From contig NZ_CVRM01000011.1 of assembly GCF_001258055.1 (NCBI RefSeq), positions 434,001 to 498,000 of the forward strand: 64,000 nt of DNA, given 5' to 3'. Origin of the DNA: Phaeobacter italicus. GTDB taxonomy: Bacteria; Pseudomonadota; Alphaproteobacteria; Rhodobacterales; Rhodobacteraceae. The notes beneath the pieces were generated by a model. That model saw only the letters and a list, made by a program, of their open reading frames with translations, made no database searches and was not told the DNA's origin. Position 1 is the first letter of the stretch. Each line of letters opens with the position of its first letter. This document shows positions 676 to 16,120 of this stretch, in pieces. The position numbers were made by a program, and so were the translations under genes.

Positions 676-1782
676 TCAGAGCAGTTCCGACATCTCCACG
701 ACCCTGTGTTCCTTGATCGAGATCTGAGCAGCCAGCCCCATCAGCACAGCCATACGACCGTCTTTAAGGGTGACCTCCGGGGTTGGGCGCGTGCCACGCA
801 CCAGTTCAAGAAACTTGCGGTGTTGATAGAAGGTCGAGCCGTTGTGATCGCCAGCCTCCAGAAGGTCAGGGTCGACCGGTACCTCGATCTCAACAGGGCC
901 ACGTGGCTCTCGCAGGGATGTCACAACCTTGGGCACAGGGGCAGCCCCCAGATGTTCGGGCCAAAATCGCCCGGGACCGGGTACAAACGCCTCGATCTTT
1001 CCTCTTGGGCCAATTGCCGTCACCTCTTCCTGATATTCTGCGCCTTCGGCAAACATGCAGAGTTCCAGCATGGCACGGGCGCCGCAGCTGAAGTCGACAA
1101 TCACATATCCATTGTCCAGGATGTCCGGCACGCCATCGCTATAGCGTTCATCCAGATGGTTGGCATCCTGACCGCCGCTGGCCATCACGCGCACGGGTTC
1201 CGATCCAAGCGTCAACCGCATGAGATCGAAGAAATGGCAGCATTTCTCTACGAAGGTGCCGCCGGATTTGGCGTCAAATCGGTTCCAGTCATCGACCTTC
1301 TCCAGAAACGGAAAGCGGTGTTCGCGCACGGTGAGCATCTTGATGCCGCCAGTCGCGTCAACAGCGTCACGCAAAAACGTCGCGATTGGCGGCATGTAGC
1401 GATATTCCATCGCAACCCAGACGGGCGCCGGATATGTGGTCTCAAACGCGGCCAGACGGGCACGGTCGTCGAGGCTGGTGAATAGCGGTTTTTCCACCAA
1501 CACTGGCAGTGGCCGGGTTCGGGCCAGCAGCTCCAGCTGTTCGAGATGCCGGAAATTGGGGCTGGCAATCAGGAGACAATCCAGATCCCCGATCTTCATC
1601 AGGTCTTCGATACTGTCGGTAAAGGTGGCATCCGGCGCAAACTGCGCTGAAATCTCACGCATGGCGGGATTGGGCTCGTAGATCGCGCCGACGCGTGTGT
1701 TGTCGAGCAGGGCGATATTTCGCAGATGCTCTTGGCCCATCATGCCGCAGCCGATGATCCCGTAGGTGATGGGGTCTGACAT
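676..1782 (-). CDS. Gfo/Idh/MocA family oxidoreductase; candidate NAD-dependent glycosidase
   Basis: This 368-aa protein has the N-terminal Rossmann NAD(P)-binding motif GIIGCGMMG and the dinucleotide-domain signature LVEKPLF typical of Gfo/Idh/MocA enzymes. The conserved central segment GGTFVEKCCHFFDLMRL is likely part of the active site. The start ATG is preceded by a strong AGGAGGAA ribosome site. It lies 8 bp downstream of a GntR regulator gene on the same strand and is divergent from a monooxygenase operon. Family members are sugar dehydrogenases, but some use transient NAD-dependent oxidation to cleave glycosides, including sulfoquinovosidases (GH188). In this context that is an attractive but unproven role. 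A plain sugar or polyol dehydrogenase is the alternative. Confidence 0.85.
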   Translation of the reverse strand: MSDPITYGIIGCGMMGQEHLRNIALLDNTRVGAIYEPNPAMREISAQFAPDATFTDSIEDLMKIGDLDCLLIASPNFRHLEQLELLARTRPLPVLVEKPLFTSLDDRARLAAFETTYPAPVWVAMEYRYMPPIATFLRDAVDATGGIKMLTVREHRFPFLEKVDDWNRFDAKSGGTFVEKCCHFFDLMRLTLGSEPVRVMASGGQDANHLDERYSDGVPDILDNGYVIVDFSCGARAMLELCMFAEGAEYQEEVTAIGPRGKIEAFVPGPGRFWPEHLGAAPVPKVVTSLREPRGPVEIEVPVDPDLLEAGDHNGSTFYQHRKFLELVRGTRPTPEVTLKDGRMAVLMGLAAQISIKEHRVVEMSELL

Positions 1783-1790
1783 GTTTCCTC

Positions 1791-2501
1791 CTAAGTCAGG
1801 CGCTGCACATAGAGTGCTTTGTCGGGGTCAAACCAGGTGCGCGAAAATTCCACCGGGGCAGAGACCTGCGCCCAGCTGAGCCGTTCGATATAGCCCACGG
1901 TGGTTCCGGCAGGTTTGGAAAAATGCGCTGGCGCCCAGTCCGGGACCGGGCCAAGCGATACCCTGTCTTCGGCACGGGTGATCCAGAAGCCGAGAGCCAT
2001 GCGGTAATATCTATAAAGAGAATCGGACAGCTGATCGGCCTTTACCTGACCTGCGTCGCGGTCCAGCCAGATTTCCTCTACCGCGATTATGACATCGTCA
2101 AGATAGCGCAAGCGACGGATTCTGGTGCCGGTCTCGGCAGTGCCAAAGGCCGGTAGATCCGCCGGTTTTGGGCATTCTTCTACAGATAGGATATCCGCGG
2201 TCGGCAGTCCGCCTCCGCTGTGTAGTTCAAGGCGGAACATGGAATAGATGCTTTGGGCGCTTTGGGTCGAGCGGATGTAGTTTCCGGACCCTTGGATGCG
2301 TTCCAGCATCCCCTGTTTTTCCATTTCTGCCAGTGACTTGCGCAGCGTTCTTACGGTTGTTCCATACTGTTGCGCCAGCTGGCGTTCCGGCGCGAGACGT
2401 TCGCCGTCAGCCAGGCGGCCAGAGGCGATTTCCCGGGTCAGGGCCTCGCTGATTTGGAGATAGAGAGGCAGGGCAGAGCCGGTGGCGCGGGTGTTTGGCA
2501 T
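1791..2501 (-). CDS. GntR family transcriptional regulator with UTRA ligand domain
   Basis: The protein has an N-terminal winged helix of the GntR type (LPLYLQISEALTREI, then a recognition region around QQYGTTVRTLRKSLAEM) and a C-terminal UTRA (HutC-like) effector domain. The chosen start gives a 236-aa protein beginning MPNTRATGS; an in-frame upstream start would add 23 residues that do not look like a regulator N-terminus. It forms an operon with the downstream oxidoreductase (8-bp gap). It is divergent from the monooxygenase/TRAP operon, so it is probably a local repressor released by a pathway sugar or intermediate. Confidence 0.9.
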   Translation of the reverse strand: MPNTRATGSALPLYLQISEALTREIASGRLADGERLAPERQLAQQYGTTVRTLRKSLAEMEKQGMLERIQGSGNYIRSTQSAQSIYSMFRLELHSGGGLPTADILSVEECPKPADLPAFGTAETGTRIRRLRYLDDVIIAVEEIWLDRDAGQVKADQLSDSLYRYYRMALGFWITRAEDRVSLGPVPDWAPAHFSKPAGTTVGYIERLSWAQVSAPVEFSRTWFDPDKALYVQRLT

Positions 2502-2529
2502 GGGGCTAATGGTCGCTGAAGTCAAAAAA

Positions 2530-2554
2530 TTGATACACCATTGATATACATCAA
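2530..2554. promoter_or_regulatory. Putative GntR operator in divergent promoter region
   Basis: TTGATATACATCAA at 2541-2554 is a perfect inverted repeat (TTGAT-N4-ATCAA), and another TTGAT half-site lies at 2530-2534. It sits between the divergent gntR and monooxygenase genes, where an autoregulated GntR/UTRA protein would bind. The assignment to that regulator is inferred from position and symmetry. Confidence 0.55.
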
Positions 2555-2602
2555 GGCGCAGGCTATGCAAGAGTTAAGTTGCGAAACGCGAGGGAGAGGT
2601 TG

Positions 2603-3757
2603 ATGAGCGTTGTTCCCATTACGTCGGCAGATCTTGACGCTGTGGAGGTGTCGTGGTTCGCGGCGCTTTGCTCGGACGATTATCAGTTTCTCGGCGTGCC
2701 AGATGGGGATCTGCGATCATCCTGGGCTCATTGCTCTGACATCGTGAAAGAGGCAGAGGCGCAGGGGTTTCGCAACATCCTGTGTCCGTCGTCCTATCAG
2801 GTGGGGCAGGATACGCTCAGCTTTGTTGCGGGCTGCGCGCCGATCACCAGCAAGATCAACATGTTGGCAGCGGTTCGCTGTGGTGAAATGCAGCCCATCA
2901 TGCTGGCGCGCACGCTGGCGACTCTGGATCACATGCTGGAGGGGCGTCTGACCGTCAACATCATCTCCTCTGATTTTCCGGGCGAGAAGGCCGACAGCGC
3001 GTTTCGCTATCAGCGGTCGCGCGAGGTTGTGGAAATTCTCAAGCAGGCCTGGACGCAGGATGAAATCAACCACGAGGGAGAAGTCTATTCCTTCAACGGG
3101 CTGACGACAGATCCGGCAAAACCCTATCAGACCGGTGGCCCGCTTTTGTATTTCGGTGGCTATTCCCCTTCGGCGCTGGATCTGTGCGGAGAGCATTGCG
3201 ACGTCTACCTGATGTGGCCGGAAAAGATGGAAGAGCTGGAAGGCCGGATGAAAGCGGTCCATGCCGTTGCAGAGCAATATGGACGAACGCTGGATTACGG
3301 TCTGCGGGTTCATATGATTGTGCGTGACACAGAGGCAGAGGCGAACGAATACGCTGAGTATATCGTCTCCAAACTGGACGAAGCACAGGGCAAGGCGATC
3401 CGCGACCGTGCCCTTGATGCCACCTCGCTTGGCGTTGCTCATCAGGCCAAGAACCGCGAAGTCGCGGATGAATACGGCTACATCGAACCACACCTCTGGA
3501 CCGGGGTTGGCCGGGCGCGTTCTGGCTGTGGGGCGGCACTGGTCGGGTCAACGGATCAGGTTATGTCAAAACTGGACGCATATCAGAAAATGGGGATCCG
3601 GGCCTTTGTGCTGTCAGGCTACCCGCATCTGGAAGAGGCGCGACATTTCGGGACACGGGTCATGCCGCATCTGAAAACCTGTTCGCTGCCGCATGAATAT
3701 GGCCGGGTGCCTGCAACGGTTCCGGCCACACCTCTCGGGAATGGAGTACGTCGTTGA
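2603..3757 (+). CDS. LLM-class FMN-dependent monooxygenase, SsuD-like (candidate sulfoquinovose monooxygenase)
   Basis: This 384-aa protein belongs to the bacterial luciferase-like family, close to alkanesulfonate monooxygenases: a TIM-barrel enzyme using reduced flavin and O2 to cleave C-S bonds. Family-type segments include MLAAVRCGEMQP, GRLTVNIIS and a C-terminal GYPHLEEARHFG. I chose the ATG at 2603 because AGGGAGAGG lies just upstream; a TTG eight codons earlier is less likely. Its stop overlaps the aldo/keto reductase start (TGATG), and a flavin reductase follows, so the FMNH2 supplier is encoded in the same operon. The trio matches the sulfo-SMO sulfoquinovose pathway, but other sulfonates are possible. 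Confidence 0.85.
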   Translation: MSVVPITSADLDAVEVSWFAALCSDDYQFLGVPDGDLRSSWAHCSDIVKEAEAQGFRNILCPSSYQVGQDTLSFVAGCAPITSKINMLAAVRCGEMQPIMLARTLATLDHMLEGRLTVNIISSDFPGEKADSAFRYQRSREVVEILKQAWTQDEINHEGEVYSFNGLTTDPAKPYQTGGPLLYFGGYSPSALDLCGEHCDVYLMWPEKMEELEGRMKAVHAVAEQYGRTLDYGLRVHMIVRDTEAEANEYAEYIVSKLDEAQGKAIRDRALDATSLGVAHQAKNREVADEYGYIEPHLWTGVGRARSGCGAALVGSTDQVMSKLDAYQKMGIRAFVLSGYPHLEEARHFGTRVMPHLKTCSLPHEYGRVPATVPATPLGNGVRR

Positions 3758-4647
3758 TGGAACGGATCGAAATCGCACCGGGCCTGAGCCTGAGCCGTTT
3801 GGTTTATGGAATGTGGCGTCTGGGAGACGATAGCGACACCTCGACCGCGCATGTCGAAGCCAAGATCAACGCCTGTCTTGAGCAGGGGATCACCACCTTT
3901 GATCAGGCTGACATCTATGGTGGCTATGCTGCTGAGGGCATTTTGGGACAGGCAATCAAGGCCAATCCGGCCCTGCGGGCGCAAATGGAAATCGTCACCA
4001 AATGCGACATCGTTGCGCCGATGGGACGCTATGCAGATAAGCGGGTCAAATACTACGACACCAGCCGGGCTCATATTTTGTCGTCAGTTGATACATCGCT
4101 TCAGGAAATGGCGGTGGACCATATTGACCTTTTGTTGATCCACCGGCCGGATCCATTGATGGATCACCGCGAAACCGGCGCGGTGCTGGACGAGGTTGTT
4201 GCCTCGGGCAAGGTGCGGGCGGTTGGTGTGTCGAATTTCCGCCCCTGGGACTGGGAATTGCTGCAGTCGGCAATGAAAACGCCACTTGCGACCAACCAGA
4301 TTGAGATTTCGCTCTCTGAAATCCGCCCGTTCACCAATGGAGATCTGGCATTTCATCAGCGCCAGGATCATCCCCTGATGGCCTGGTCACCGCTTGGTGG
4401 TGGTGGGCTGATGACCAGCAGCGGTGGCGTTGCCGATCGCCTAGACGCGATTGCCTCGCAGCAGGGGGTGGATAGAGCTGCGGTTGCGATTGCCTTTCTC
4501 CTGCGCCATCCGGCTCATATCTTGCCTGTTCTTGGGACGAACAACCTCGACCGGATCAAGCGGGCGTCGGATGCGCTGAAAGTCGATCTGGACCGCGAAA
4601 CTTGGTTCAGCCTCTACGAGGCTGCGCTTGGTCAGGAGGTTCCATGA
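3757..4647 (+). CDS. Aldo/keto reductase, SmoB/YdhF-like (candidate 6-dehydroglucose reductase)
   Basis: This 296-aa NADPH-dependent aldo/keto reductase has the catalytic tetrad in order: Asp49, Tyr54 (in DQADIYGGY), Lys82 (VTKCD) and His129 (LLLIHRPD). The C-terminal cofactor region VLGTNNLDRIKRA is also typical. From memory the protein resembles Agrobacterium SmoB, which reduces 6-dehydroglucose, the product of oxidative desulfonation of sulfoquinovose, to glucose; I could not align them here. The ATG overlaps the monooxygenase stop, and its own stop overlaps the flavin reductase start (ATGA), so the three genes are translationally coupled. Confidence 0.87.
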   Translation: MERIEIAPGLSLSRLVYGMWRLGDDSDTSTAHVEAKINACLEQGITTFDQADIYGGYAAEGILGQAIKANPALRAQMEIVTKCDIVAPMGRYADKRVKYYDTSRAHILSSVDTSLQEMAVDHIDLLLIHRPDPLMDHRETGAVLDEVVASGKVRAVGVSNFRPWDWELLQSAMKTPLATNQIEISLSEIRPFTNGDLAFHQRQDHPLMAWSPLGGGGLMTSSGGVADRLDAIASQQGVDRAAVAIAFLLRHPAHILPVLGTNNLDRIKRASDALKVDLDRETWFSLYEAALGQEVP

Positions 4648-5165
4648 TGGCTGCGAACACGGGTGCGGGCAAACAGAGCTTTGTCCCGGCGCCTGACAAC
4701 ACGCGACTGCTGCGCGATGCGTTTGGCCGCTTTGCGACAGGGGTGACCATCGTCACCGCTGCCTGTGACAAGGGGACGGTGGCCATCACCGCGAACAGTT
4801 TTTCCTCGGTCTCGCTTTCACCGCCATTGGTTTTATGGTCGCCAGACAAGACATCGCGGCGTTTCCCGTATTTTGAAACCGCTCAGCATTTTGCGATCCA
4901 TGTGCTGGCTGCGGATCAGGATGACCTGTGTTGGCAGGTGGCAAAAGATGCCTTTGGGCTGAACCAATTGGTTCTGGAGCGCAACACCGATGGCGTGCCG
5001 TTGCTGGACAACTGCCTGGCACGGTTCGAATGCACACGATCTGCGCTGCATGACGCCGGCGATCATATGATTGTTCTGGGCCATGTCGATCGCGCGACCA
5101 TGCGCGAAGGTGGCGATGCGCTGACATTCTACAACGGTCAAATGGGCCAGATCGCCGCCGAATGA
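4644..5165 (+). CDS. Flavin reductase (FMN-binding split-barrel), partner of the monooxygenase
   Basis: This 173-aa protein of the HpaC/SsuE-like flavin reductase domain family contains FGRFATGVTIVTA and the flavin-contacting NSFSSVSLSPPLV. It would reduce FMN with NAD(P)H and pass it to the SsuD-like enzyme two genes upstream. The start ATG at 4644 overlaps the preceding stop and follows a good AGGAGG; a longer frame from 4602 has no such site. About 160 bp separate it from the TRAP transporter genes. Confidence 0.88.
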   Translation: MMAANTGAGKQSFVPAPDNTRLLRDAFGRFATGVTIVTAACDKGTVAITANSFSSVSLSPPLVLWSPDKTSRRFPYFETAQHFAIHVLAADQDDLCWQVAKDAFGLNQLVLERNTDGVPLLDNCLARFECTRSALHDAGDHMIVLGHVDRATMREGGDALTFYNGQMGQIAAE

Positions 5166-5323
5166 CCCGCAGCCCGTTGGGACAAAGTACGACGCACCTG
5201 CGCCGCGCCGGGGAGGGCGGGGCCAGCAAGACAAAAGAGCCAAAAGGCCCATGAGCCAGACGCCGCAGGGCGAAATGTCAGAAGGGAGATGACATTGGGA
5301 GGAAACAATAGGGGGGCGCCGGG

Positions 5324-5914
5324 ATGACGGCGATCCTGTCTGTGCTGAACTTTCTGCGCCCGCTCAACACCGGCCTGCTTGCAGTCGGCCGTTGGGTGGG
5401 CGTTTTTGCCATTGGTCTCATGGTGGCGGCAATCCTGATCCAGGTGTTTTTCAGATATGTTCTGGGCAGCGCATTGCCTTGGCCGGACGAGGCGGCGCGG
5501 TTCTGCATGTTGTGGATGACGGGCCTGATGGCGCCCACCGCTTTTCGCAGCGGCGGGTTTGTTGCGATCGACGTGATGGACAACGTGCTGCGCGGGGCGG
5601 CCTTTCACCTGCTGCAGCTGGTTCTTTTGGCGATCTGCCTGGCGGTTCTGATCGTCGGGGTTCAGATCGGCTACAAGGAGGTGATGGGCCTTGGCGGGCG
5701 CTTTGCAACCGCCTCGCTTTATGTGCCGACATCGCTTGGTTTTGACGAATGGTACCGTGTTCCGCGCAGCTGGATGATGCTGTCGCTATTGGTTGGTGTT
5801 GCGCTGTTGATCCTCGTCAATGTTGAGCTGATCCTGGAACGCATCGTGCGGCTGTTTGGGCGGGGGGATCGCATCCCGCCGCGGCCCGGGCTGACCATGG
5901 GGGGCGCAGAATAA
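5324..5914 (+). CDS. TRAP transporter small permease subunit (DctQ-like)
   Basis: This 196-aa protein has four predicted hydrophobic segments and the DctQ-type pattern, with GRWVGVFAIGLMVAAI followed by QVFFRYVLGSALPWPDEAARF, in which the FRYV and WPDE motifs are characteristic. It would form the inner-membrane complex with the large subunit that follows, whose start codon overlaps its stop (TAATG). The upstream 158 bp contain no gene I can support. The substrate is inferred only from the neighbouring catabolic genes, most likely a sulfonated or other acidic sugar. Confidence 0.88.
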   Translation: MTAILSVLNFLRPLNTGLLAVGRWVGVFAIGLMVAAILIQVFFRYVLGSALPWPDEAARFCMLWMTGLMAPTAFRSGGFVAIDVMDNVLRGAAFHLLQLVLLAICLAVLIVGVQIGYKEVMGLGGRFATASLYVPTSLGFDEWYRVPRSWMMLSLLVGVALLILVNVELILERIVRLFGRGDRIPPRPGLTMGGAE

Positions 5915-7389
5915 TGCTGATCTGGTTCCTGCCGCTGTTCCTGTTTCTCTTGATGGTTGGCCTGCCGGTGTTCTTTTGCCTGTTGGCAGCCCCCGGAGCC
6001 CTGTTGTGGCTAAACGGTCAGGAACGGGATCTGACCCTGCTGTATCGCAATCTTTACAACGGGATGGACAGTTTTCCGCTCATGGCGATCCCGTTTTTCA
6101 TGCTGGCGGGTGAATTGATGAACCGCGGTGGTATCACCGTGCGCCTGGTTGAGTTTTCGCAGGCGCTGATGGGCCATCTGCGGGGGGGCTTGGCACAGGT
6201 GAATATCCTGTCGTCGATCCTGTTTGCAGGGCTGTCAGGTTCTGCTGTGGCGGATACCTCTGCCCTTGGCTCCATGCTGATCCCAGCGATGGAGAAGGAA
6301 GGCTACAGCCGTAAATTCGCCGCAGCAGTCACAGCGGCCAGTTCGGTGATCGGGCCGATTATCCCGCCCTCCGGCATCATGATCATCTACGCCTATGTCA
6401 TGGGCGAGAGTGTCGCTGCGCTGTTTCTTGCGGGGATCGTGCCGGGTATTCTGGTGGGCATAGGTCTGATGGTGATGGTGCGGATGATGGCGGATCGGTA
6501 TGAGCTGCCTGCCGCCCGGCGTGTGGTGTTTGACAAGGTGGAGATCGGCGCGGTTGAAGCGTGGTTCTCCTTTGCACTGGTGCGGCTGAACCTTGGTCTG
6601 TTGTTTTCCCAGTTTGTCCCACTCAGCGACAGCGCCGGTGCGCAGGGGGCATGGCTCAGCTTTCTGGGGGGGGTGCTGCTGGCACATGGTTTGATGCTGG
6701 GTTTGCGCCGTGTGGTCAGCGCAGACTTCCGCGTCGTGTGCAAGCGCGCGGTGGTGCCTTTGCAGACGCCCGTGCTGATCCTTGGTGGCATTCTGGCGGG
6801 AGTGTTCACCCCGACAGAGGCGGCCGCAGTCGCCGTGGCGTATGCGCTGTTGATCAGCTTTGGCATTCTTGGCTCCATGCGGCTGTCGGACCTGCCGGAG
6901 GTCTTTTCTCGGGCGGGGATCACCTCGGCTGTGGTCCTGCTGCTGGTTGGGGCCGCGATGTCGTTCAAAACCGTCGTGAGCCTCAGCCACGCGCCAGAAC
7001 AGCTGGCTGGGTTCATCCTGACCCTGTCTGAAAACCCGCTGATCCTGCTGTTTCTGATCAATCTGCTGTTGTTTGTGGTCGGGATGTTTCTGGATGCAGG
7101 GCCCGCAATCATCATCCTCGGCCCGATCCTTGGCCCGGTTTTCGAAGGGCTCGGGGTTGAGCCCGTGCATTTCGCCATCATCATGTGCGTGAACCTGACT
7201 GTGGGGCTCGCGACACCGCCGATGGGGCTGGTGTTGTTCGTTGCGGCCGCTGTGTCGCAAGAGCGCGTGACGACCATCGCCAAGGCCATCCTGCCGTTCC
7301 TTGCCATCGAAATCGCCGTGATCTTCCTGATCACCTTTGTGCCAGCGATTTCGCTGACGGTGCCGAAATTGACCGGGTTCCTGAACTAG
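5914..7389 (+). CDS. TRAP transporter large permease subunit (DctM-like)
   Basis: This 491-aa protein is almost entirely hydrophobic, with more than ten membrane segments. Family features include FPLMAIPFFMLAGELMNRGG near the N-terminus, GLSGSAVADTSALGSMLIPAM, ASSVIGPIIPPSGIMI and NLTVGLATPPMGLVLF near the C-terminus. It carries out sodium-driven solute import with the DctQ and DctP subunits. A charged central stretch (roughly residues 190-260) makes it longer than the usual 425-430 aa DctM. Expression is coupled to the small subunit. Confidence 0.92.
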   Translation: MLIWFLPLFLFLLMVGLPVFFCLLAAPGALLWLNGQERDLTLLYRNLYNGMDSFPLMAIPFFMLAGELMNRGGITVRLVEFSQALMGHLRGGLAQVNILSSILFAGLSGSAVADTSALGSMLIPAMEKEGYSRKFAAAVTAASSVIGPIIPPSGIMIIYAYVMGESVAALFLAGIVPGILVGIGLMVMVRMMADRYELPAARRVVFDKVEIGAVEAWFSFALVRLNLGLLFSQFVPLSDSAGAQGAWLSFLGGVLLAHGLMLGLRRVVSADFRVVCKRAVVPLQTPVLILGGILAGVFTPTEAAAVAVAYALLISFGILGSMRLSDLPEVFSRAGITSAVVLLLVGAAMSFKTVVSLSHAPEQLAGFILTLSENPLILLFLINLLLFVVGMFLDAGPAIIILGPILGPVFEGLGVEPVHFAIIMCVNLTVGLATPPMGLVLFVAAAVSQERVTTIAKAILPFLAIEIAVIFLITFVPAISLTVPKLTGFLN

Positions 7390-7445
7390 GGGCCTGACAG
7401 ATCAAGCGAATAAACCAGAATAAAAGAGCAACAGGAGGAGAAACG

Positions 7446-8504
7446 ATGCTCAGGAATTTGGTAAAGACGGTGGCCCTGTCGGCCCTGATGGCAGGAACTG
7501 CTCTGTCGGCATATGCCGCTGACTACACCATCCGTGCGACTGCAAACTCGAACGAAAACGACGAGGATTATGACGGTCTGGTCGTGTTCAAGAACTACGT
7601 CGAAGCCGCGTCAAACGGTGCGATCGAGGTTGAGCTGTTCATCGGTACGCAGCTTTGCTCCAACGGGGCGGAATGCCTTCAGGGCGTGGCGGATGGATCC
7701 ATCGACGTCTATATCTCCACATCTGGCGGCGCCTCTGGCCTGTTCCCATATGTGCAGGTTCTCGATCTGCCTTATCTGATGGCGGATGACCGGATTGCAG
7801 AACATGTTCTGTCGGGCGATTTCACCCGCCAGATGCGCAAGATGGCGTTGGAGGATTCCGGTGATGCCATCCGCCTGATGACGATTGGCAACACCGGCGG
7901 CTGGCGCAACTTTGCCAACACGAAACGCCGCGTCGCAGAGCCGTCTGACATGGAAGGCCTGAAAATCCGGACCGTTGTCGCCGATCTTCCGCAGGAACTG
8001 GTGAAGGCCCTTGGTGCGTCGCCGACGCCGATCCCGTGGCCAGAGCTGTTCACCTCCTTCCAGACCGGTGTGGTTGAGGGCTCCAAAAACGGAATTACCG
8101 ACATCATGGGGATGAAGTTCCCGGATGCTGGTCTGCAATATGTGACCCTTGATGGGCACGCCTACATGGGGGCGCTGTGGTGGATGTCGAACCAGACATT
8201 CATGAACATGCCCGAAGACATGCGCCAGGTTGTTGTTGACGGCTTCTATGCCTTGCAGCAGGCAACCTTTGCCTCGCCCAAGCGCAAGTCGATCCAGGCC
8301 TATGAGGATTTTGTTGCAGGGGGTGGCGATCTCTATGTTCCGACACCCGAACAGAAGGCGGCCTTCAAAACCGCAGCGGAGCCGGTCTATGACTGGTTCA
8401 AGTCGAACGTGACCCGCGGGGATGAGATCTTTACCGCACTGACCGACGCGGTCGCAGAAGCTGAGGCAGACGTCAGCGCAGCCCGCGCAGCGGACCTGAA
8501 CTGA
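7446..8504 (+). CDS. TRAP transporter substrate-binding protein (DctP family)
   Basis: This 352-aa periplasmic protein has a Sec signal peptide (basic MLRNLVK, hydrophobic core, cleavage near SAYA-AD). DctP-type motifs follow: LFIGTQLCSNGAECLQGVADG, LKIRTVVADLPQELVKALG and the signature PIPWPELFTSFQTGVVEG. It captures the ligand and delivers it to the DctQM permease. A strong AGGAGGAG precedes the ATG, consistent with high expression. A stem-loop terminator follows at once, so this is the last gene of the monooxygenase/TRAP operon. Confidence 0.92.
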   Translation: MLRNLVKTVALSALMAGTALSAYAADYTIRATANSNENDEDYDGLVVFKNYVEAASNGAIEVELFIGTQLCSNGAECLQGVADGSIDVYISTSGGASGLFPYVQVLDLPYLMADDRIAEHVLSGDFTRQMRKMALEDSGDAIRLMTIGNTGGWRNFANTKRRVAEPSDMEGLKIRTVVADLPQELVKALGASPTPIPWPELFTSFQTGVVEGSKNGITDIMGMKFPDAGLQYVTLDGHAYMGALWWMSNQTFMNMPEDMRQVVVDGFYALQQATFASPKRKSIQAYEDFVAGGGDLYVPTPEQKAAFKTAAEPVYDWFKSNVTRGDEIFTALTDAVAEAEADVSAARAADLN

Positions 8505-8517
8505 GCCAAACCAAAGG

Positions 8518-8550
8518 AAACGGCGCGGGGATCACCTCGCGCCGTTTTCT
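8518..8550 (+). terminator. Rho-independent terminator after TRAP operon
   Basis: AAACGGCGCG (8518-8527) pairs with CGCGCCGTTT (8538-8547), giving a 10-bp stem with a 10-nt loop followed by TCTCTTTT. Confidence 0.85.
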
Positions 8551-8592
8551 CTTTTGGTTTCCTGCAGCATGTGTCCGACCAATGCTGAGCGC

Positions 8593-9084
8593 TCAGCGGA
8601 ACGGGTACATCCAGACCTTGTAATCTTCGACAAGAACATGCGCTTTCTCAATCTCGTCCTGCGTCATTTTCTTCACCACTTCCTCAAGGCTGATGGCGGC
8701 ATCGGGGTCTCCTCCGATGGCCGAAAGCGTGTACCACATATACGCGCGGACAAGATCGGGGGCAGGCATGCCGCGGCCGATCTCATAGTACCAACCGATG
8801 CCAGACTGGGCGCCGGGGTGTCCTTTCATCGCAGACCGAAGATACCACTCAAAGGCGCGCTGGTCGTCTCGCTCAACGCCAAGCCCCATGGCATACATCA
8901 CACCAATCAGCTCTTCGGCGTCGGCATTCCCGGACCGGGCCGCAGGCCAGAGCGCGGCTCTGGCCTCCTCAAACTGGCCTGCTTCCATCAGATCGCGCGC
9001 CGCTTCAATTTCGGCCAGGGCAGGCAGGGGCGTACACAGCGACATCATCGCAGCGGTGGCCAGTTTCAGCAGGTGTTGGCGCAT
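8593..9084 (-). CDS. Secreted Sel1-repeat (tetratricopeptide-like) protein
   Basis: This 163-aa protein has a signal peptide (MRQHLLKLATAAMM... cleaved near PALA-EI). It then has Sel1-like repeats, seen as GNADAEELIGVMYAMGLGV, DDQRAFEWYLRSAMKGHPGA and GIGWYYEIGRGMPAPD. Sel1 repeats usually mediate protein-protein contacts; no enzymatic residues are visible. The ATG follows GAAGGGAA. Its start region faces, and may overlap, the start of the divergent di-haem peroxidase, suggesting they share a control region. Confidence 0.82.
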   Translation of the reverse strand: MRQHLLKLATAAMMSLCTPLPALAEIEAARDLMEAGQFEEARAALWPAARSGNADAEELIGVMYAMGLGVERDDQRAFEWYLRSAMKGHPGAQSGIGWYYEIGRGMPAPDLVRAYMWYTLSAIGGDPDAAISLEEVVKKMTQDEIEKAHVLVEDYKVWMYPFR

Positions 9085-10452
9085 CTCATTTCCCTTCGTT
9101 GTGCCTTGGCGTCGGGGGCGGTTGCCACCGGTCTGGCGGCGGGTGCCTCTTTTGCGGACGGCGCAGAACCGGTTGTCACCCGCCCTGGGTTTCCCGCCCC
9201 GCTGCGGGCGCGTGATTTTATGCCCACCAATCCAGCCAAGGCCGAGTTGGGGCGGCTGCTATTTTACGACAAGATCCTGTCTGGGAACAGAAACATCAGC
9301 TGCGGAACCTGTCATAATCCGAGGTTTGGCACCTCTGATGGTCTCTCGCTGGGCCTCGGTGAGGGGGCATCTGGGCTGGGGCAGGAACGGCGCTCGGGTG
9401 AGGGCGTCGACCGGATACAGAAACGCATTCCGCGAAACGCTCCGGCGCTTTGGAACCTTGGCGCGACGTCGATTGCCGTCTTGATGCACGATGGCCGCAT
9501 CAGCCGCGATCCGATCTATGGCAACGGCTTTAACACCCCGGCCGAGGAATGGTTGCCGCAGGGGCTGCAATCGGTTCTGGCGGCGCAGGCATTGTTTCCG
9601 ATGACCAGCGGCTTTGAAATGGCGGGCAATGTGGGAGAGAACGAAGTCATCGGAGCCGTCAGGGACCGGATCGATCTTGGCTGGCCAATCATCGCCAAAC
9701 GTGTGCGTGCAGTGCCGGATTATGGGCAGGCGTTTGTTGAAGCATTTGACCACGTAACCACAGCAGAGCAGGTGCAGATCACCGACATAGCAGAGGCGCT
9801 GGCCCATTTCATGGTGCAAGACTTTACCTCGTTCGACAGCCCGTTTGACGCATTTCTGGCCGGAGATCAGGCCGCGCTCTCACCCTTGCAGCGAAGGGGC
9901 GCCGATTTGTTTTTCGGCTCGGCGGGCTGCAGCGGCTGCCATGCGGGGGCTCTGTTGTCGGATCAGAAATTTCATGCACTTGGATTGCCTGCGTTTGGCC
10001 CAGGTCGCGCACGCCGGTTTGATCCCTATGCGCGGGATGTGGGCCGCATGGGCGAGAGTGATGATCTCGCAGACGCCTATCGGTTCAGAACCCCGATGCT
10101 GCGCAACGTCGAATTGACCGGGCCTTATGGTCACAATGGGGCCTATTCCACGCTTGAGCGAATGGTGCGCCATCATCTTGACCCGGAAGAGGGCAGGGCA
10201 TCCTGGACACCGGCTGATCTGACATTGCCGCAGGTGGACTGGCTTGCGCCGATTGATTTTGTCATCCAGAGCGACCGTCTGGAAATGGCGCGGCAGGCGC
10301 GCACCCGCGATATCTATCTGCGCAATGACCTGAGCGATGACGACATCGACGCATTGGTCAGCTTTTTGACGTCCCTGACGGGAAAGGCCGCCCGAGAGCA
10401 GCGTTCGCGTGTTCCGGACAGCGTGCCCAGCGGTTTGCCTGTTGATCGTTAG
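9073..10452 (+). CDS. Di-haem cytochrome c peroxidase / MauG family protein
   Basis: Two CxxCH haem-binding motifs are present, C77-GT-CH and C286-SG-CH in the numbering used here, with a conserved MHDGR segment between them and FMTSGF-type spacing (seen as FPMTSGFEMAGN). The family either reduces H2O2 in the periplasm or acts as MauG-like oxidases. The start is uncertain: no ATG with a ribosome site precedes the mature domain. GTG at 9073 gives a plausible signal peptide ending ASFA-DG but overlaps the start codon of the divergent gene; TTG at 9106 is the alternative. The protein is about 450 aa, longer than a minimal peroxidase. Confidence 0.85.
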   Translation: MLAHLISLRCALASGAVATGLAAGASFADGAEPVVTRPGFPAPLRARDFMPTNPAKAELGRLLFYDKILSGNRNISCGTCHNPRFGTSDGLSLGLGEGASGLGQERRSGEGVDRIQKRIPRNAPALWNLGATSIAVLMHDGRISRDPIYGNGFNTPAEEWLPQGLQSVLAAQALFPMTSGFEMAGNVGENEVIGAVRDRIDLGWPIIAKRVRAVPDYGQAFVEAFDHVTTAEQVQITDIAEALAHFMVQDFTSFDSPFDAFLAGDQAALSPLQRRGADLFFGSAGCSGCHAGALLSDQKFHALGLPAFGPGRARRFDPYARDVGRMGESDDLADAYRFRTPMLRNVELTGPYGHNGAYSTLERMVRHHLDPEEGRASWTPADLTLPQVDWLAPIDFVIQSDRLEMARQARTRDIYLRNDLSDDDIDALVSFLTSLTGKAAREQRSRVPDSVPSGLPVDR

Positions 10453-10462
10453 TTGAAAAAGA

Positions 10463-10489
10463 CGCGGGACCATCTGAGATGATCCCGCG
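10463..10489. terminator. Stem-loop between convergent peroxidase and iolB
   Basis: CGCGGGA (10463-10469) pairs with TCCCGCG (10483-10489), with an internal CATCT/AGATG extension. It lies between two convergent stops and could terminate both; the T-tract is poor. Confidence 0.6.
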
Positions 10490-10519
10490 CCCGTCATTTT
10501 GTACCGCTTTGCGCGGATC

Positions 10520-11329
10520 TCACTTTGCGTCGCGTTCCATGATCCATTCCACCTCAGGCGCTGCCACAAAACGCCATTTGCGCAAGGGGCCGGCCATCAC
10601 GTTGAGATAGTACATCTCAAACCCGTAAGGCGCGCCGCAGGGGTGATGACCGCGCGGAACAAGGACGACATCGCCATCTGCCACAGCCATGGTTTCATCC
10701 AACTGCCCGTCATCGGTGTAGACGCGCTGAATACCAAAGCCATTGGCCGGATTGAGCCGGTGATAATAGGTCTCTTCCAGATAGGTGATCCGGGGGTAGT
10801 CGTCTTCGTCATGGCGATGGCTGGGAAAGGAGGACCAATGACCTGCGGGGGTAAAGACCTCTGTCACCAACAGGCTGTCACAATAGTCTTCGGCTTCCAT
10901 CGCGATATTGTTGATGTACCGCGTATTTGTGCCTTTGCCACGCTCTGTCAGGGTGATGCCGTCAGGGCCGATTCGGCGTGCGTCGTGCCCGCCCTTGCCC
11001 GGGGCTGAACAGACGGCAATGGTGCAGTCCGTCGTCGCCTCAGCGGTCCAGTCACTGCCATTGGGCAGATAGAGACAATGCGGCGGCGTCTTTTCAAAGA
11101 CGTTCATCCGGTCGCCAAGCTCGCCCCAATCCTGACCTGCGCCAGTGATGTTTGCCTTGCCTTCGACCATGACCAGAATGACCTCACGGTCGCCAGTCAC
11201 ATCGGCCGCGGTTTCGCCCGCCCGCAAACGGTGCAGCGCAAAACCGACATAACGCCAACCTGCGCTTTCCGGGGTGATGCGATGCACTTCGCCGTGGGTG
11301 CCAAAGGGTTTTCTGAGCAGATCGCTCAT
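10520..11329 (-). CDS. iolB: 5-deoxy-glucuronate isomerase IolB
   Basis: This 269-aa cupin-fold enzyme converts 5-deoxy-D-glucuronate to 2-deoxy-5-keto-D-gluconate in myo-inositol catabolism. Family-typical segments include GHWSSFPSHRHDEDDYPRIT (metal-binding His and Asp residues), ETYYHRLNPANGFG and VVLVPRGHHPCGAPYG. It is the last gene of a minus-strand iol operon, 28 bp after iolE, and is followed by a stem-loop. Length and motifs are complete. Confidence 0.95.
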   Translation of the reverse strand: MSDLLRKPFGTHGEVHRITPESAGWRYVGFALHRLRAGETAADVTGDREVILVMVEGKANITGAGQDWGELGDRMNVFEKTPPHCLYLPNGSDWTAEATTDCTIAVCSAPGKGGHDARRIGPDGITLTERGKGTNTRYINNIAMEAEDYCDSLLVTEVFTPAGHWSSFPSHRHDEDDYPRITYLEETYYHRLNPANGFGIQRVYTDDGQLDETMAVADGDVVLVPRGHHPCGAPYGFEMYYLNVMAGPLRKWRFVAAPEVEWIMERDAK

Positions 11330-11357
11330 GGCTTTGCCTCCTGTGTTTTGAGGTGCA

Positions 11358-12263
11358 TCATGCCTCTACGGTCAGGCCGTAGCGGGTGCACAGATCGCGG
11401 ATCGTTTCATAGCCCAGTTTGGACGCCTCATATGGGGCGACCTTTGCGGGATCCTGTTCAGCCTCAACCACGATCCAGCCAGCATAGTCCATCTTGGCCA
11501 GTTTTTCCGTGACAGCCGCAAAGTCAATGGAACCCTCGGCATCGCCCGGGACGGTAAAGGCACCTGCGATGACGGCATCCAAGAAGGACCAGTTTTCAGC
11601 CCGCGCCTGCGAGGCGATGTTGGCGCGCAGATCCTTGTAATGGACGTGGTGAATCCGGTCGCCCCATTTGTCCAACGTCCCCAACAGATCACCGCCGCCA
11701 AAGACCAGATGACCTGTATCATAAAGCAGCGTGACCTCGGGGCTGCTGGCCTCCATCAGCCAGTCGATGTCCTGTTGATCCTCGATAAAGGCGCCCATGT
11801 GGTGATGATAGGCAAGCGGCAGGCCCTTGTCCGTCATCCATTTGGCGATCTCCGACAGTTTGGCGGCATAGCCGTGCACGTCGTCACGGCTCAGCTTGGG
11901 GCGGTTGTTGACCGGTGTGCCCTGATCGCCCTGAACGGTGTTTGAGCATTCGGCATAGACCAGACAAGGCGCGCCAAGGGCTGCAAATTGCTCCACCTGT
12001 TCCTGAATGGCGGCCTTTTCGGTGGCGACATCATTGACCAAAAGATTGCCAGAGCACCAACCGCCACACAGGGCAATGTCATACTCGTTCAAGTATTTGC
12101 GCAGGCCTTCGGTGTCTTGCGGCATACGGCGGCCGCGCTCAACGCCGGTGTAGCCGATGTCGCGTGCCTCGCTCAGGGCCTGTTCCATTGTGTAGGCTGC
12201 GGTCAGGTCCGGCAGGTCGTCGTTCTGCCAGGCGATGGGGGAGATACCAATCTTGACGCTCAT
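11358..12263 (-). CDS. iolE: myo-inosose-2 dehydratase IolE
   Basis: This 301-aa xylose isomerase-like TIM-barrel protein dehydrates 2-keto-myo-inositol to the diketone that IolD hydrolyses. Diagnostic segments are IGISPIAWQNDDLPDL at the N-terminus, GYTGVERGRRMP, YHHHMGAF and ALLYDTGHLVF-like LLYDTGHLVFGGGD, followed by HVHYKDLR; His, Asp and Glu residues in these segments bind the metal. About 100 bp separate it from iolD upstream; no terminator is evident there, so it is probably still in the iol operon. Confidence 0.95.
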   Translation of the reverse strand: MSVKIGISPIAWQNDDLPDLTAAYTMEQALSEARDIGYTGVERGRRMPQDTEGLRKYLNEYDIALCGGWCSGNLLVNDVATEKAAIQEQVEQFAALGAPCLVYAECSNTVQGDQGTPVNNRPKLSRDDVHGYAAKLSEIAKWMTDKGLPLAYHHHMGAFIEDQQDIDWLMEASSPEVTLLYDTGHLVFGGGDLLGTLDKWGDRIHHVHYKDLRANIASQARAENWSFLDAVIAGAFTVPGDAEGSIDFAAVTEKLAKMDYAGWIVVEAEQDPAKVAPYEASKLGYETIRDLCTRYGLTVEA

Positions 12264-12365
12264 GGTCGTGGTCTTTCTGTTGTGACGCGGCTCAACGCGC
12301 CAATGTCTGTTGTCTTGATACTTCGGTCCCCCGCGTCGCGCAGGTCAGCGACACGGGGTGGGCGC

Positions 12366-14195
12366 TCAATTCAAGGCGCGGGCTTTGATCTGTTTTTCGT
12401 ACTCCGCCCGCTTGGCGCGGACCTCTTCGCGCGCCGAGACCTCGGGCACTGCGACGTCCCACCAGAACCCACCATCCGGGGTGGAGGGGTAGGGATCTGT
12501 ATCGATCACGATCACAAACGGACCTTTTGCCGATTTCGATCGCTGCAGCGCGTCTTCAAGTTCCGCGATCGAAGAGACGTGAACCGACGCAGCCCCCATA
12601 GAGGCGGCATGGGCGGCGAAGTCGATATTGGCTGGGTTCACGTGATAGCTGTGATCCAGCAGGTTGTTGAACTCGGCTCCGCCGGTGCCCATTTGCAGCC
12701 GGTTGATACAGCCATAACCCCGATTGTCGGTGATCACGACAGTCATATCGATGCCGAGCATGGCTGCGGTGGCCAATTCGGAGTTGGCCATCATGTAGCT
12801 GCCATCGCCGATCATGCAGATCACCTCGCGGTCAGGCTGGGCCATCTTGATGCCCATGGCGCCTGCGATTTCATATCCCATGCAGGAATAGCCGTACTCC
12901 ATGTGGTAGGCACCGGGGCGGGGGGCCTTCCAGAGTTTATGCAGCTCTCCCGGCATGGTGCCCGCAGCGCACATGACGACCGTGTCGGGGCCGGAACTGC
13001 GCTGGACTGCGCCGATCACATGCTGGTCGCTTGGCGACTGAATGTCGTCTCGCGGGGCGGCGGTCAGAGGGTCGACGGCCGCGAACCATGCTTCCTTCAG
13101 GGCTGAAGGCGGCGCTTCTGCGCAATGGTCGCCAAGCGCCTCGCTCAGCTGTTCCAACCCGATCAGCGCATCACAGCACAGTGGTTCTGCGCCGTGCTTC
13201 ATCGCATCATATGCGGCCACATTGAGCGAGATGAGTTTGCGAGCAGGGTTCTGAAACAGGTTCCAGGATCCCGTGGTGAAATCCTGAAAGCGGGTCCCAA
13301 CGCCCAGCACCACATCCGCATCCGTGCAGATCTCGTTTGCCGACCCGGCGCCGGTTACACCAACGGGGCCCAGGTTCAGAGGATGGTCCCAGGCAAGGGC
13401 GGATTTGCCGGCTTGGCTCTCCACCACAGGGATCTGATGCGTTTCGGCAAAGGCGCGCAGTGCATCGCAGGCACCTGAATAATGCGCCCCGCCACCGGCG
13501 ACGATCACGGGTTTCTTCGCTGCCCTGATCAACTCTGCCGCATGTGCAAGTTCTCGGGCATCCGGGAGAGCCCGGCGAATGTACCACGTGCGCGGCTCAA
13601 AAAACGCCTCGGGCCAGTCGTAGGCCTCGGCCTGAACGTCCTGACAGAACGCCAGTGTCACCGGGCCACAGTCGGCAGGGTCCGTCATCGTGCGAAAGGC
13701 GCGCGGCAAGGCAGTCAGCAGCTGCTCTGGTCGGGTGATCCGGTCGAAATAACGGCTAACCGGTTTAAAGCAGTCATTGGCGCTGATGGTGCCGTCGTTG
13801 AAATTCTCGACCTGCTGCAACACGGGGTCCGGGCCGCGCCCTGCAAAGACATCACCGGGGATCAGCAGCAGGGGGAGGCGATTGACATGGGCAAGGGCGG
13901 CAGCCGTGACCATGTTGGTCGCGCCAGGCCCGATTGACGAGGTCACAGCCATGGCACGTTTGCGGCCGGATTGTTTGGCATAGGCGATGGCCGCATGGGC
14001 CATGGTTTGCTCATTGTGACCACGATAGGTGCGAAAGCTCTCGCGTTCAGCATAGAGCGCTTCGCCCAGGCCAGCGACGTTGCCATGACCAAAGATGGCC
14101 CAGATGCCGTCAAGGAACGGCACGCCATCTTCGTTCAGCTGCGCCGCCAGATAGCGAACCATGGCCTGTGCGGCGGTCAGTCGGATCATTGTCAT
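12366..14195 (-). CDS. iolD: 3D-(3,5/4)-trihydroxycyclohexane-1,2-dione hydrolase IolD
   Basis: This 609-aa thiamine diphosphate enzyme opens the inositol ring to give 5-deoxyglucuronate. The ThDP/Mg motif GDGSYMMAN...ITDN is present near residues 445-475, and the N-terminal PYR domain carries the usual GHGNVAGLGEAL and GPGATNMVTAAA segments. The ATG at 14195 overlaps the iolC stop (TGATG), so the two are coupled; a TTG one codon earlier is not needed. Length is normal for IolD. Confidence 0.95.
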   Translation of the reverse strand: MTMIRLTAAQAMVRYLAAQLNEDGVPFLDGIWAIFGHGNVAGLGEALYAERESFRTYRGHNEQTMAHAAIAYAKQSGRKRAMAVTSSIGPGATNMVTAAALAHVNRLPLLLIPGDVFAGRGPDPVLQQVENFNDGTISANDCFKPVSRYFDRITRPEQLLTALPRAFRTMTDPADCGPVTLAFCQDVQAEAYDWPEAFFEPRTWYIRRALPDARELAHAAELIRAAKKPVIVAGGGAHYSGACDALRAFAETHQIPVVESQAGKSALAWDHPLNLGPVGVTGAGSANEICTDADVVLGVGTRFQDFTTGSWNLFQNPARKLISLNVAAYDAMKHGAEPLCCDALIGLEQLSEALGDHCAEAPPSALKEAWFAAVDPLTAAPRDDIQSPSDQHVIGAVQRSSGPDTVVMCAAGTMPGELHKLWKAPRPGAYHMEYGYSCMGYEIAGAMGIKMAQPDREVICMIGDGSYMMANSELATAAMLGIDMTVVITDNRGYGCINRLQMGTGGAEFNNLLDHSYHVNPANIDFAAHAASMGAASVHVSSIAELEDALQRSKSAKGPFVIVIDTDPYPSTPDGGFWWDVAVPEVSAREEVRAKRAEYEKQIKARALN

Positions 14196-16120
14196 CAAAC
14201 GGCTCCCTGTGCTTTTTGTTTTTGAACGCTATCACGCGCGTCGCCCCAAATGTCGCAGAGGCGTGCGTAGTTCTCTGTCATCCGGCTCACGGCCTCACGA
14301 TCGTCCAGCTTGCCTGCAAACCAGTCCCGTGCCACCTGGCCAAAGATGGTCCGACCCACGGCAAAGCCTTTGACCAGCGGGAAGCGTGTTGCAAGGGCAA
14401 AGCTCTCGCGCAGATCGTCTTCCGGGGCGTCCAGCCCGAGAACCACGATGCCGCGTGTCCGCTTGTCATTGCGTTCGATCGCCTCACAGCTTGCAGCCCA
14501 GGCCGCTTCGGTGCGGAAGGGTTCCAGCTTCCACCAATCGGGATAAATCCCGGCATCATAGATGCGCTGGATCACGGTTGGGGTGGTTGTGTCATCAACC
14601 GCACCCACCTTGGAGGGGATGACCTCCAGCAGGAACTCCAGCCCGTTTCGACGACAGGATTGGAACAGGCGACGGACGGTCGAGAGGTGATCCTCCCACA
14701 TGGCATCATCATCGTCCGGGTGCGGAAAACACAGGCATTTCACAACGTGATTCGTAGGCCATTCCTTCAACCCGCCGCAGTCTTCTCCGACCTGCGGCTC
14801 CAACCGCAAGGGGCGCGAGCCCGGCCATTCCACCGGACGTCCGATCCAAAGACCCTGGTCTGCAGCTGCATGGAGCGCGCGGGTGCCGACACGACCGTCG
14901 CACAGAATGCCGTGGCCCCCGCGCCCGGCGGCCTGCGCAACTGCAGCTTCCAGACACAGCTCTTTGAAGGCGCTGATCTTTTCGGGCGTCGCGCCCTCCA
15001 TCTCTTCCATCTGACTGCGATGATCAAACGCAAAGACGCGGATGTCGTCCCAGTCCAGTTTGCGGGTGGTTGACCAGTGGATCTGCTCCAGTGCCTGGTC
15101 TTTGCGCAGGGCCTTTTCCTGGATCCCACGGTCGAGGAAGAACAGCAGTTCCTCCCAGCTTGGATAGGCCGGGGTGCAGCCGTGGCGGCTGACAGCAAAC
15201 GCACCGCAGGCGTTGGCGTATTTCAGCGACGTGGGCCAGTCTTCGTTGTCGAGCCAACCCTTGAGAAGACCGGACATGAAGCCATCACCAGCGCCGAGGA
15301 CATTGAACACCTCGATGGGAAAGCCGGGGCCGGTCTGCCCATCATTCAGGCTGTCGGGAATATCACCAACAAAGGCAGCCGCCCCGTCTGCACCGCGTTT
15401 GCAGACCAGCACCGCGCCGGATACGGCGCGCACCGCGCGCAGCGCAGCAATGGTGTCTGTGGTTCCGCCTGCGATGTGGAATTCTTCCTCCGTGCCGACG
15501 ATCAGATCGAACAGATGCAATGTCGACTGGAGCTTTGCTGTCACGGCATCCGAGGCGATGAAACGGTTTTCGCCATCTCCGTGCCCGGACAGCCCCCAAA
15601 GGTTGGGGCGAAAATCGATATCGAGCGCGGTTTGTGCGCCGTGTTTGCGCGCCAGTTCCAGCGCTTTGAGAACCGCGGCTTCGGTGCGTGGGTTGCTCAG
15701 ATGGGTGCCGGTTGCCACAACGGCCCGGGCGCGGGCGATGAATGCCTCATCCACGTCGTCAACACTCAGCGCCATATCGGCACAGTTTTCGCGGTAGAAA
15801 ATCAGCGGAAACTGTTCTTCATCCCGAATGCCCAAAAGCACAAGCGCGGTCAGGCGGTCGGGATCGGTGAGGACGCCCGTGACGTCCACACCTTCCTTGA
15901 TCAGTTCTTCACGCAGGAAACGGCCCATGTGCTCATCCCCGACCTTGGTCAGCAAGGCAGAGCGCAAGCCGAGCCGAGCCGTTCCTGTGGCCATATTGGT
16001 GGGTGAGCCGCCGACATATTTTTCGAACGAGCGCATGTCCTCAAGCCGACCGCCAATCTGTGCTCCGTACAGGTCCACAGAGGAGCGACCGATCGTGATG
16101 AGATCAAGATCTTTTGTCAT
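14195..16120 (-). CDS. iolC: 5-dehydro-2-deoxygluconokinase IolC fused to DUF2090 (aldolase-like) domain
   Basis: This 641-aa two-domain protein has an N-terminal PfkB kinase (about residues 1-325: GRSSVDLYGAQIGGRLED, VGGSPTNMATG, catalytic NVLGAGDGF with its Asp). It phosphorylates 2-deoxy-5-keto-gluconate. The C-terminal half (about 335-630: VFAFDHRSQMEEM, GLWIGRPVEWPGSRPL, GLDAPEDDLRESF) is the DUF2090 domain. Its aldolase-like fold suggests it performs the IolJ step, cleaving the phosphorylated product, and no separate iolJ is seen here. It overlaps both neighbours by single bases. Confidence 0.93.
   Translation of the reverse strand: MTKDLDLITIGRSSVDLYGAQIGGRLEDMRSFEKYVGGSPTNMATGTARLGLRSALLTKVGDEHMGRFLREELIKEGVDVTGVLTDPDRLTALVLLGIRDEEQFPLIFYRENCADMALSVDDVDEAFIARARAVVATGTHLSNPRTEAAVLKALELARKHGAQTALDIDFRPNLWGLSGHGDGENRFIASDAVTAKLQSTLHLFDLIVGTEEEFHIAGGTTDTIAALRAVRAVSGAVLVCKRGADGAAAFVGDIPDSLNDGQTGPGFPIEVFNVLGAGDGFMSGLLKGWLDNEDWPTSLKYANACGAFAVSRHGCTPAYPSWEELLFFLDRGIQEKALRKDQALEQIHWSTTRKLDWDDIRVFAFDHRSQMEEMEGATPEKISAFKELCLEAAVAQAAGRGGHGILCDGRVGTRALHAAADQGLWIGRPVEWPGSRPLRLEPQVGEDCGGLKEWPTNHVVKCLCFPHPDDDDAMWEDHLSTVRRLFQSCRRNGLEFLLEVIPSKVGAVDDTTTPTVIQRIYDAGIYPDWWKLEPFRTEAAWAASCEAIERNDKRTRGIVVLGLDAPEDDLRESFALATRFPLVKGFAVGRTIFGQVARDWFAGKLDDREAVSRMTENYARLCDIWGDARDSVQKQKAQGAV

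Follow-up and report, generated by a model that had tools for sequence, protein, structure and literature searches.

Introduction

Sulfoquinovose (SQ) is an abundant sulfur sugar of plants and algae; Kaur et al. (2023, PMC10755693) put its output at about 10 billion tons a year, and Roseobacter-type bacteria belong to its consumers. The question raised by the locus described here, a divergent module of eight genes in Phaeobacter italicus, is whether it serves the oxidative desulfonation of SQ by the SQ monooxygenase (sulfo-SMO) pathway and by what kind of importer the sugar enters the cell. The window, that is, the whole stretch of DNA analyzed, comprises 64,000 nucleotides of contig NZ_CVRM01000011.1, and all coordinates of the module are positions within it. 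The module occupies 676–8504, with two genes on the minus strand and six on the plus strand. An original prediction had placed here genes for a monooxygenase, a reductase, a flavin reductase, a tripartite ATP-independent periplasmic (TRAP) importer, and a Gfo/Idh/MocA protein, and all of them were found where it had placed them.

Results

Because SmoC- and SmoB-type enzymes are encoded together with a match to glycoside hydrolase family 188 (GH188), we consider it highly probable from these sequence comparisons that the locus encodes a sulfo-SMO pathway for SQ and its glycosides, with GH188 replacing the family 31 enzyme (GH31). The gene at 2603–3757 (+) is predicted to encode a flavin mononucleotide-dependent SQ monooxygenase of the luciferase family and of the SmoC type, as judged by scores, identity, and phylogeny. 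The protein scored 692 and 685 bits against the solved chains 7olf and 7oh2, respectively, which we take to be SmoC, and about 178 bits against SsuD/MsuD, with identities of 75.5% to both 7olf and 7oh2 and of 33–34% to SsuD/MsuD (34.4% to SsuD, 1nqk). A literature search did not confirm our assignment of these two chains, nor that of 7bby, which we likewise presume to be SmoB, and found nothing tying 7olf, 7oh2, 7bby, 7bc1, or 8zn9 to SmoC, SmoB, or GH188.

A contig scan yielded at least 552 relatives, and the 80 best of them were retained, mostly from Roseobacter-type and Roseibium genomes and some of them metagenome-assembled; all counts per 80 loci refer to these closest ones. In a tree of 28 rows (the window enzyme with those of 12 of the 80 loci, 11 rows from plasmids, and four solved chains), the window enzyme grouped with 7olf and 7oh2 in a clade of 20 rows (support 96/97), and the four SsuD/MsuD rows formed a separate group (100/100), with long branches flagged among the outgroups; the position of the window inside the 7olf/7oh2 clade was not settled by the branching. 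The original prediction, which had read this SsuD-like enzyme as SmoC and had named grouping with an unrelated family as its refutation, thus survived. The genome of P. italicus has one such monooxygenase, the sole further match being partial with 31% identity.

More distant monooxygenases, about 50% identical to SmoC, were seen in loci L096 (8010–9068) and L093 (6489–7664), and perhaps act on other sulfosugars. The former stands among genes for L-arabinonate and a sugar ATP-binding cassette (ABC) system (Rhizobium WSM4643), the latter, on an Emticicia plasmid, next to genes for a symporter and a GH95 glycosidase. Because such homologues adjoin other sugar genes, the superfamily may span several sulfosugars.

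The next gene (3757–4647, +) encodes an aldo/keto reductase, predicted to be a 6-dehydroglucose reductase of the SmoB type. It scored 414 bits against 7bby with 64.7% identity and 207–208 bits against YdhF, a comparison of scores only, by which a YdhF-type reductase was rejected and the resemblance to SmoB claimed earlier was borne out. The protein carries the motifs FDQADIYGG, VTKCD, and LLIHRP, presumably those of the aldo/keto reductase tetrad. Directly behind it, the gene at 4647–5165 (+) encodes a flavin reductase matching PF01613, which was assigned to the SmoA type by its family and place.

On the opposite strand, the gene at 676–1782 (−) encodes the Gfo/Idh/MocA protein, which scored 507 bits against 8zn9 (63.8% identity), 359 bits against 8qc2 (49.9%), and 352 bits against 8qc3, the next member of the fold reaching just 64 bits. 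In PMC11465081, 8QC2 is identified as the structure of a GH188 enzyme from Kaur et al. (2023). PMC10755693 gives K107, Y136, R166, L170, K172, E189, H193, and H321 as the SQ contacts of ArSqgA, and, with the numbering of the 8qc2 chain matched to the paper by hand (offset 13), all eight have counterparts in the window protein, namely K98, Y127, R156, L160, K162, E179, H183, and H313. These residues are invariant in 35 of 35 aligned GH188 rows, consisting of the window, 25 chosen sulfo-SMO loci, eight loci resembling the sulfoglycolytic Embden–Meyerhof–Parnas (sulfo-EMP) route that are described below, and locus L104. Judged by homology and active-site residues, the protein is a predicted nicotinamide adenine dinucleotide (NAD+)-dependent sulfoquinovosidase of family GH188. 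It shares with the SqgA enzymes (ArSqgA, FlSqgA; 8QC2) the fold, about 50% identity to 8qc2, and all eight contacts, but its gene is linked to sulfo-SMO rather than sulfo-EMP and 8zn9 is nearer to it (64%).

By eye, the N-terminus of the GH188 protein runs straight into the Rossmann fold with no signal peptide. The genome of P. italicus has no match to PF01055 (GH31) and no other close GH188, two further matches having 24% and 27% identity. Earlier, a Gfo/Idh/MocA enzyme had been proposed to take the place of GH31; such a gene is indeed present and GH31 absent, but the protein is not a mere stand-in, being itself assigned as a GH188 sulfoquinovosidase. An ordinary inositol dehydrogenase was rejected for this protein (86.8 bits, the cut-off being 355) despite the iol genes downstream. 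These genes of inositol catabolism lie just beyond the module (10520–14198; IolB by Pfam, IolE and IolD by reading), and in the Ruegeria TM1040 copy iolG and a 5-deoxy-glucuronate isomerase gene are likewise found downstream.

As for the sulfite that the pathway would release, a PF03601 exporter was sought in the genome of P. italicus and not found, and was present in 17 of the 80 loci; that its cargo is sulfite is a guess. A DmsC-family match, which we take to be a possible SoeC, was found in the same genome.

The gene order is not due to chance, since the complete set of eight genes is present in 62 of the 80 loci and five annotated plasmids (Ruegeria TM1040, Rhizobium SL42, Roseivivax, Salipiger, and Paracoccus) carry copies in the same order. 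The enzymes and regulator occur with part of the TRAP system in three loci (L034 and L061, both at contig ends, and L043) and without TRAP genes in 12, and three loci (L045, L070, and L078) lack both GH188 and TRAP. TRAP genes are thus present in 65 of the 80 loci, and in 77 the GH188 gene is no more than 4.5 kb from smoC. In eight of the 15 loci without TRAP, smoA is followed by an ABC ATPase and solute-binding protein, of the same type in all eight. The genes of L060 were each scanned with Pfam; the remaining seven loci were recognized by tblastn matches to L060, and in one of these, L072, the list of open reading frames has no intact frame for the binding protein. No locus has both TRAP and the L060-type ABC importer, and seven (L026, L040, L045, L049, L052, L070, and L078) have neither TRAP nor the L060-type binding protein, L078 having an ABC ATPase of unrelated appearance.

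The importer genes of the window are dctQ for the small permease (5324–5914, +), conserved behind smoA, dctM for the large permease of 491 amino acids (5914–7389, +), and dctP for the solute-binding protein (7446–8504, +), which from its linkage is predicted to bind SQ or an SQ-glycoside. Because the stop codon shares one base with the following start codon in smoC/smoB, smoB/smoA, and dctQ/dctM, translational coupling is plausible for these pairs; the gap between smoA and dctQ is 158 bases. DctM has 491 residues in the window and some relatives and 429 in others (five annotated relatives have 429 or 491); from the alignment stops, the extra part follows approximately residue 219 and looks like an insertion.

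The linkage of the importer to SQ genes was examined in 120 genomes of the family, the same set being searched for SmoC (E ≤ 1e-120) and for window-type DctP (E ≤ 1e-110, a single match per genome). SmoC was found in 47 genomes, DctP in 42, and both in 31 (Fisher one-sided p 1.4e-8, to be taken as a guide only because the species are related). In 30 of these 31 genomes, the listed positions of the two genes are within about 5 kb, and in the remaining one (G102) they are on two contigs. Eight of the 11 DctP genomes without SmoC (loci L100, L101, L103, L106, L107, L108, L109, and L110) have nearby genes for GH188 (44–51% identical to that of the window), an SQ-isomerase-like protein, and a PfkB kinase, with a LacD-type aldolase in seven and not found in L107; a DeoR regulator and a 2-hydroxyacid dehydrogenase were also seen among the scanned genes of L100. 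These clusters likely represent a sulfo-EMP-like route sharing the TRAP importer; we infer this designation, since the isomerase model SftI, which has a cut-off of 700 bits, matched L100 with 279 and L107 with 285 bits. A further locus, L104 (genome G040; 7389–10839 of that locus), has the operator-like block described below, GntR, GH188, smoB, smoA, and TRAP, whereas smoC is missing from the interval that separates operator and smoB, and no SmoC was found elsewhere in its genome at E 1e-120. In all, 40 of the 42 DctP genomes carry SQ genes.

In a DctP tree of 37 rows (the window, 25 chosen sulfo-SMO rows, and the 11 DctP loci without SmoC), the eight sulfo-EMP-like rows were interleaved with sulfo-SMO rows, requiring five label changes, at least three of them forced by well-supported branches, so that the TRAP cassette has switched its partner more than once. 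TRAP thus accompanies SQ catabolism and not one particular enzyme set. The occurrence of the same DctP beside two SQ gene sets, together with the interleaved tree, supports an exchangeable importer of SQ or SQ-glycosides.

By eye, the start of DctP resembles a signal peptide. By residues counted by hand, R154 and R175 align with Arg127 and Arg147 of SiaP, so that both are kept, and 131 positions, including Cys71 and Cys77, are invariant across the 37 rows. The system thus shares with SiaPQM-type TRAP transporters the DctP, DctQ, and DctM subunits and these two positions, but differs in being linked to SQ genes.

Upstream of smoC, between it and the divergent regulator gene, lies an operator-like block, TTGATACACCATTGATATACATCAA (2530–2554). 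The regulator, a GntR/UTRA protein that is likely the local regulator of the module, is encoded at 1791–~2501 (−); the start called at 2570 by the open reading frame caller would span the intergenic region, and we chose the ATG at 2501. In 78 of the 80 loci (all but L025 and L061), the pattern TTGATNCACNATTGAT stands no more than 300 bp upstream of smoC, and neither strand of the 1,582,041 bp of these loci has a further occurrence. The pattern was derived from the same loci, and orthologues share descent; its recurrence is therefore a sign of conservation, not proof of binding. In the whole genome of P. italicus, TTGATATACATCAA has one exact occurrence and one with a single mismatch. The block likewise stands upstream of smoC in all five plasmid loci, is missing from both of the more distant monooxygenase loci that were checked (L092 and L096), and occurs in just L104 among the 11 DctP loci without SmoC. 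From its position, the block is probably bound by the GntR protein, which a sulfosugar ligand would release.

Beyond the TRAP genes are a Sel1-repeat gene (8593–9084, −) and a gene for a MauG-like di-haem cytochrome c peroxidase (~9190–10452, +). This pair follows TRAP in 53 of the 80 loci and in one of the five plasmid copies (L086), and lies near TRAP in seven of the 11 SmoC-less loci (L100, L101, L102, L103, L107, L108, and L110). Of the 120 family genomes, 29 have a member of a close MauG subgroup (at least 51% identity, cut at a gap in the results), and window-type DctP is present in 27 of these 29 (Fisher p 5e-14); the MauG gene is not always adjacent to DctP, and a second MauG group at 43–50% is widespread.

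Discussion

Taken as a sulfo-SMO pathway, the module would work as follows. DctPQM would import SQ, sulfoquinovosyl glycerol, or both, and the cytoplasmic GH188 enzyme would split the glycoside through transient oxidation at C3 with NAD+, a mechanism published for homologues and extended to this protein by homology and residues. SmoA would supply reduced flavin, with which SmoC and O2 would convert SQ to sulfite and 6-dehydroglucose, and SmoB would reduce the latter to glucose; these reactions are published, and homology assigns them to the present enzymes. As to the importer, we lean moderately towards a dedicated SQ/SQ-glycoside system of marine Roseobacter-type bacteria, a portable cassette joined several times to sulfo-SMO and to a GH188-linked sulfo-EMP-like cluster, interchangeable with an ABC importer and often accompanied by MauG-like di-haem and Sel1-repeat proteins.

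Several observations weigh against this scheme. None of the four enzymes reached an NCBIfam equivalog cut-off, and their NCBIfam matches include no model named SmoA, SmoB, SmoC, or GH188. Window-type DctP is lacking in 16 of the 47 SmoC genomes, and in two of the 42 DctP genomes (G014 and G048; loci L102 and L105) the fetched stretch contains neither GH188 nor SmoC nor SmoB, a SmoA-like flavin reductase being present in L105. The best solved relative of DctP scored just 121 bits. According to PMC4646407, an equivalent of Arg147 is found in 96.8% of DctP-type proteins and rarely holds a sulfonate; the conserved arginine is therefore no proof of a sulfonate ligand.

The enzymes might form a sulfo-SMO pathway while the TRAP system has another cargo, for example, a sugar acid or short organosulfonate, and SQ takes a different route into the cell. 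The SmoC genomes without DctP, the two DctP genomes without nearby SQ genes, and the seven loci with neither TRAP nor the L060-type ABC binding protein would fit this explanation, as would the statement in PMC4646407 that TRAP binding proteins take mostly organic acids; we consider it unlikely, since the same DctP adjoins two different SQ gene sets that its tree interleaves and an ABC importer occupies the same place in eight loci, none having both. That the whole locus serves a different sulfosugar, for example, sulfofucose or a sulfosugar acid, is suggested by the distant homologues at about 50% identity beside other sugar genes. It is very improbable, because the GH188 contact residues agree with the SQ complex and the published sulfofucose pathway, as described in PMC12421959, uses an enzyme set of the Entner–Doudoroff type and ABC importers. 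An SsuD-like monooxygenase that scavenges sulfur from alkanesulfonates or another small sulfonate can be given hardly any weight: the superfamily is the same and the top NCBIfam match is alkanesulfonate monooxygenase, but the score was 237.6 bits against an equivalog cut-off of 518.2, the identity is 34.4% to SsuD against 75.5% to 7olf, the clades are separate, and the gene shares an operon with a SmoB-type gene and is divergent from a GH188 gene. An SsuD-type alkanesulfonate monooxygenase was accordingly rejected, and a sulfo-SMO pathway remains our preferred reading.

The sulfoquinovosidase of Agrobacterium belongs to GH31. The sulfo-SMO (sulfo-ASMO) systems of Agrobacterium and Novosphingobium share with the window SmoA, SmoB, and SmoC type genes in one operon; where Agrobacterium encodes an ABC transporter for SQ-glycerol together with a sulfoquinovosidase (PMC9594981), the window has TRAP and GH188. 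Kaur et al. (2023, PMC10755693) describe GH188 as nearly universal among the sulfo-SMO clusters that marine Roseobacter bacteria carry, and because this combination, shared with the window, is published, the enzyme core is a known system. As regards the enzymes, the distinct marine version of the pathway suggested earlier has thus been published before for the Roseobacter clade; the exception is the TRAP importer, of which the literature examined gave no description. The available main text of the same paper has no occurrence of TRAP or transporter, and its figures or supplement may show TRAP genes; our literature search found no paper naming a TRAP importer for SQ, and key sulfo-SMO papers outside its reach may do so. 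The few papers that pair SQ with TRAP transporters appear to deal with gut taurine degraders and a haloarchaeon. Where the word trap occurs in PMC11659671, PMC11968277, PMC6278857, PMC12133307, and PMC12421959, it stands for ion traps, trap columns, or trapping, or is used as a verb. The enzymes are thus known from related bacteria, and the importer type is the less described part, which may be new or already published.

The route by which Roseobacter-type bacteria take up SQ is not settled in the literature examined. If the proposed role is true, the TRAP importer would run on an ion gradient and not on ATP, and DctP, standing beside two SQ gene sets, would be a pathway-independent marker of SQ uptake in marine genomes. 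Very probably, the module would take up SQ, free it from its carrier, strip off the sulfur, and leave glucose.

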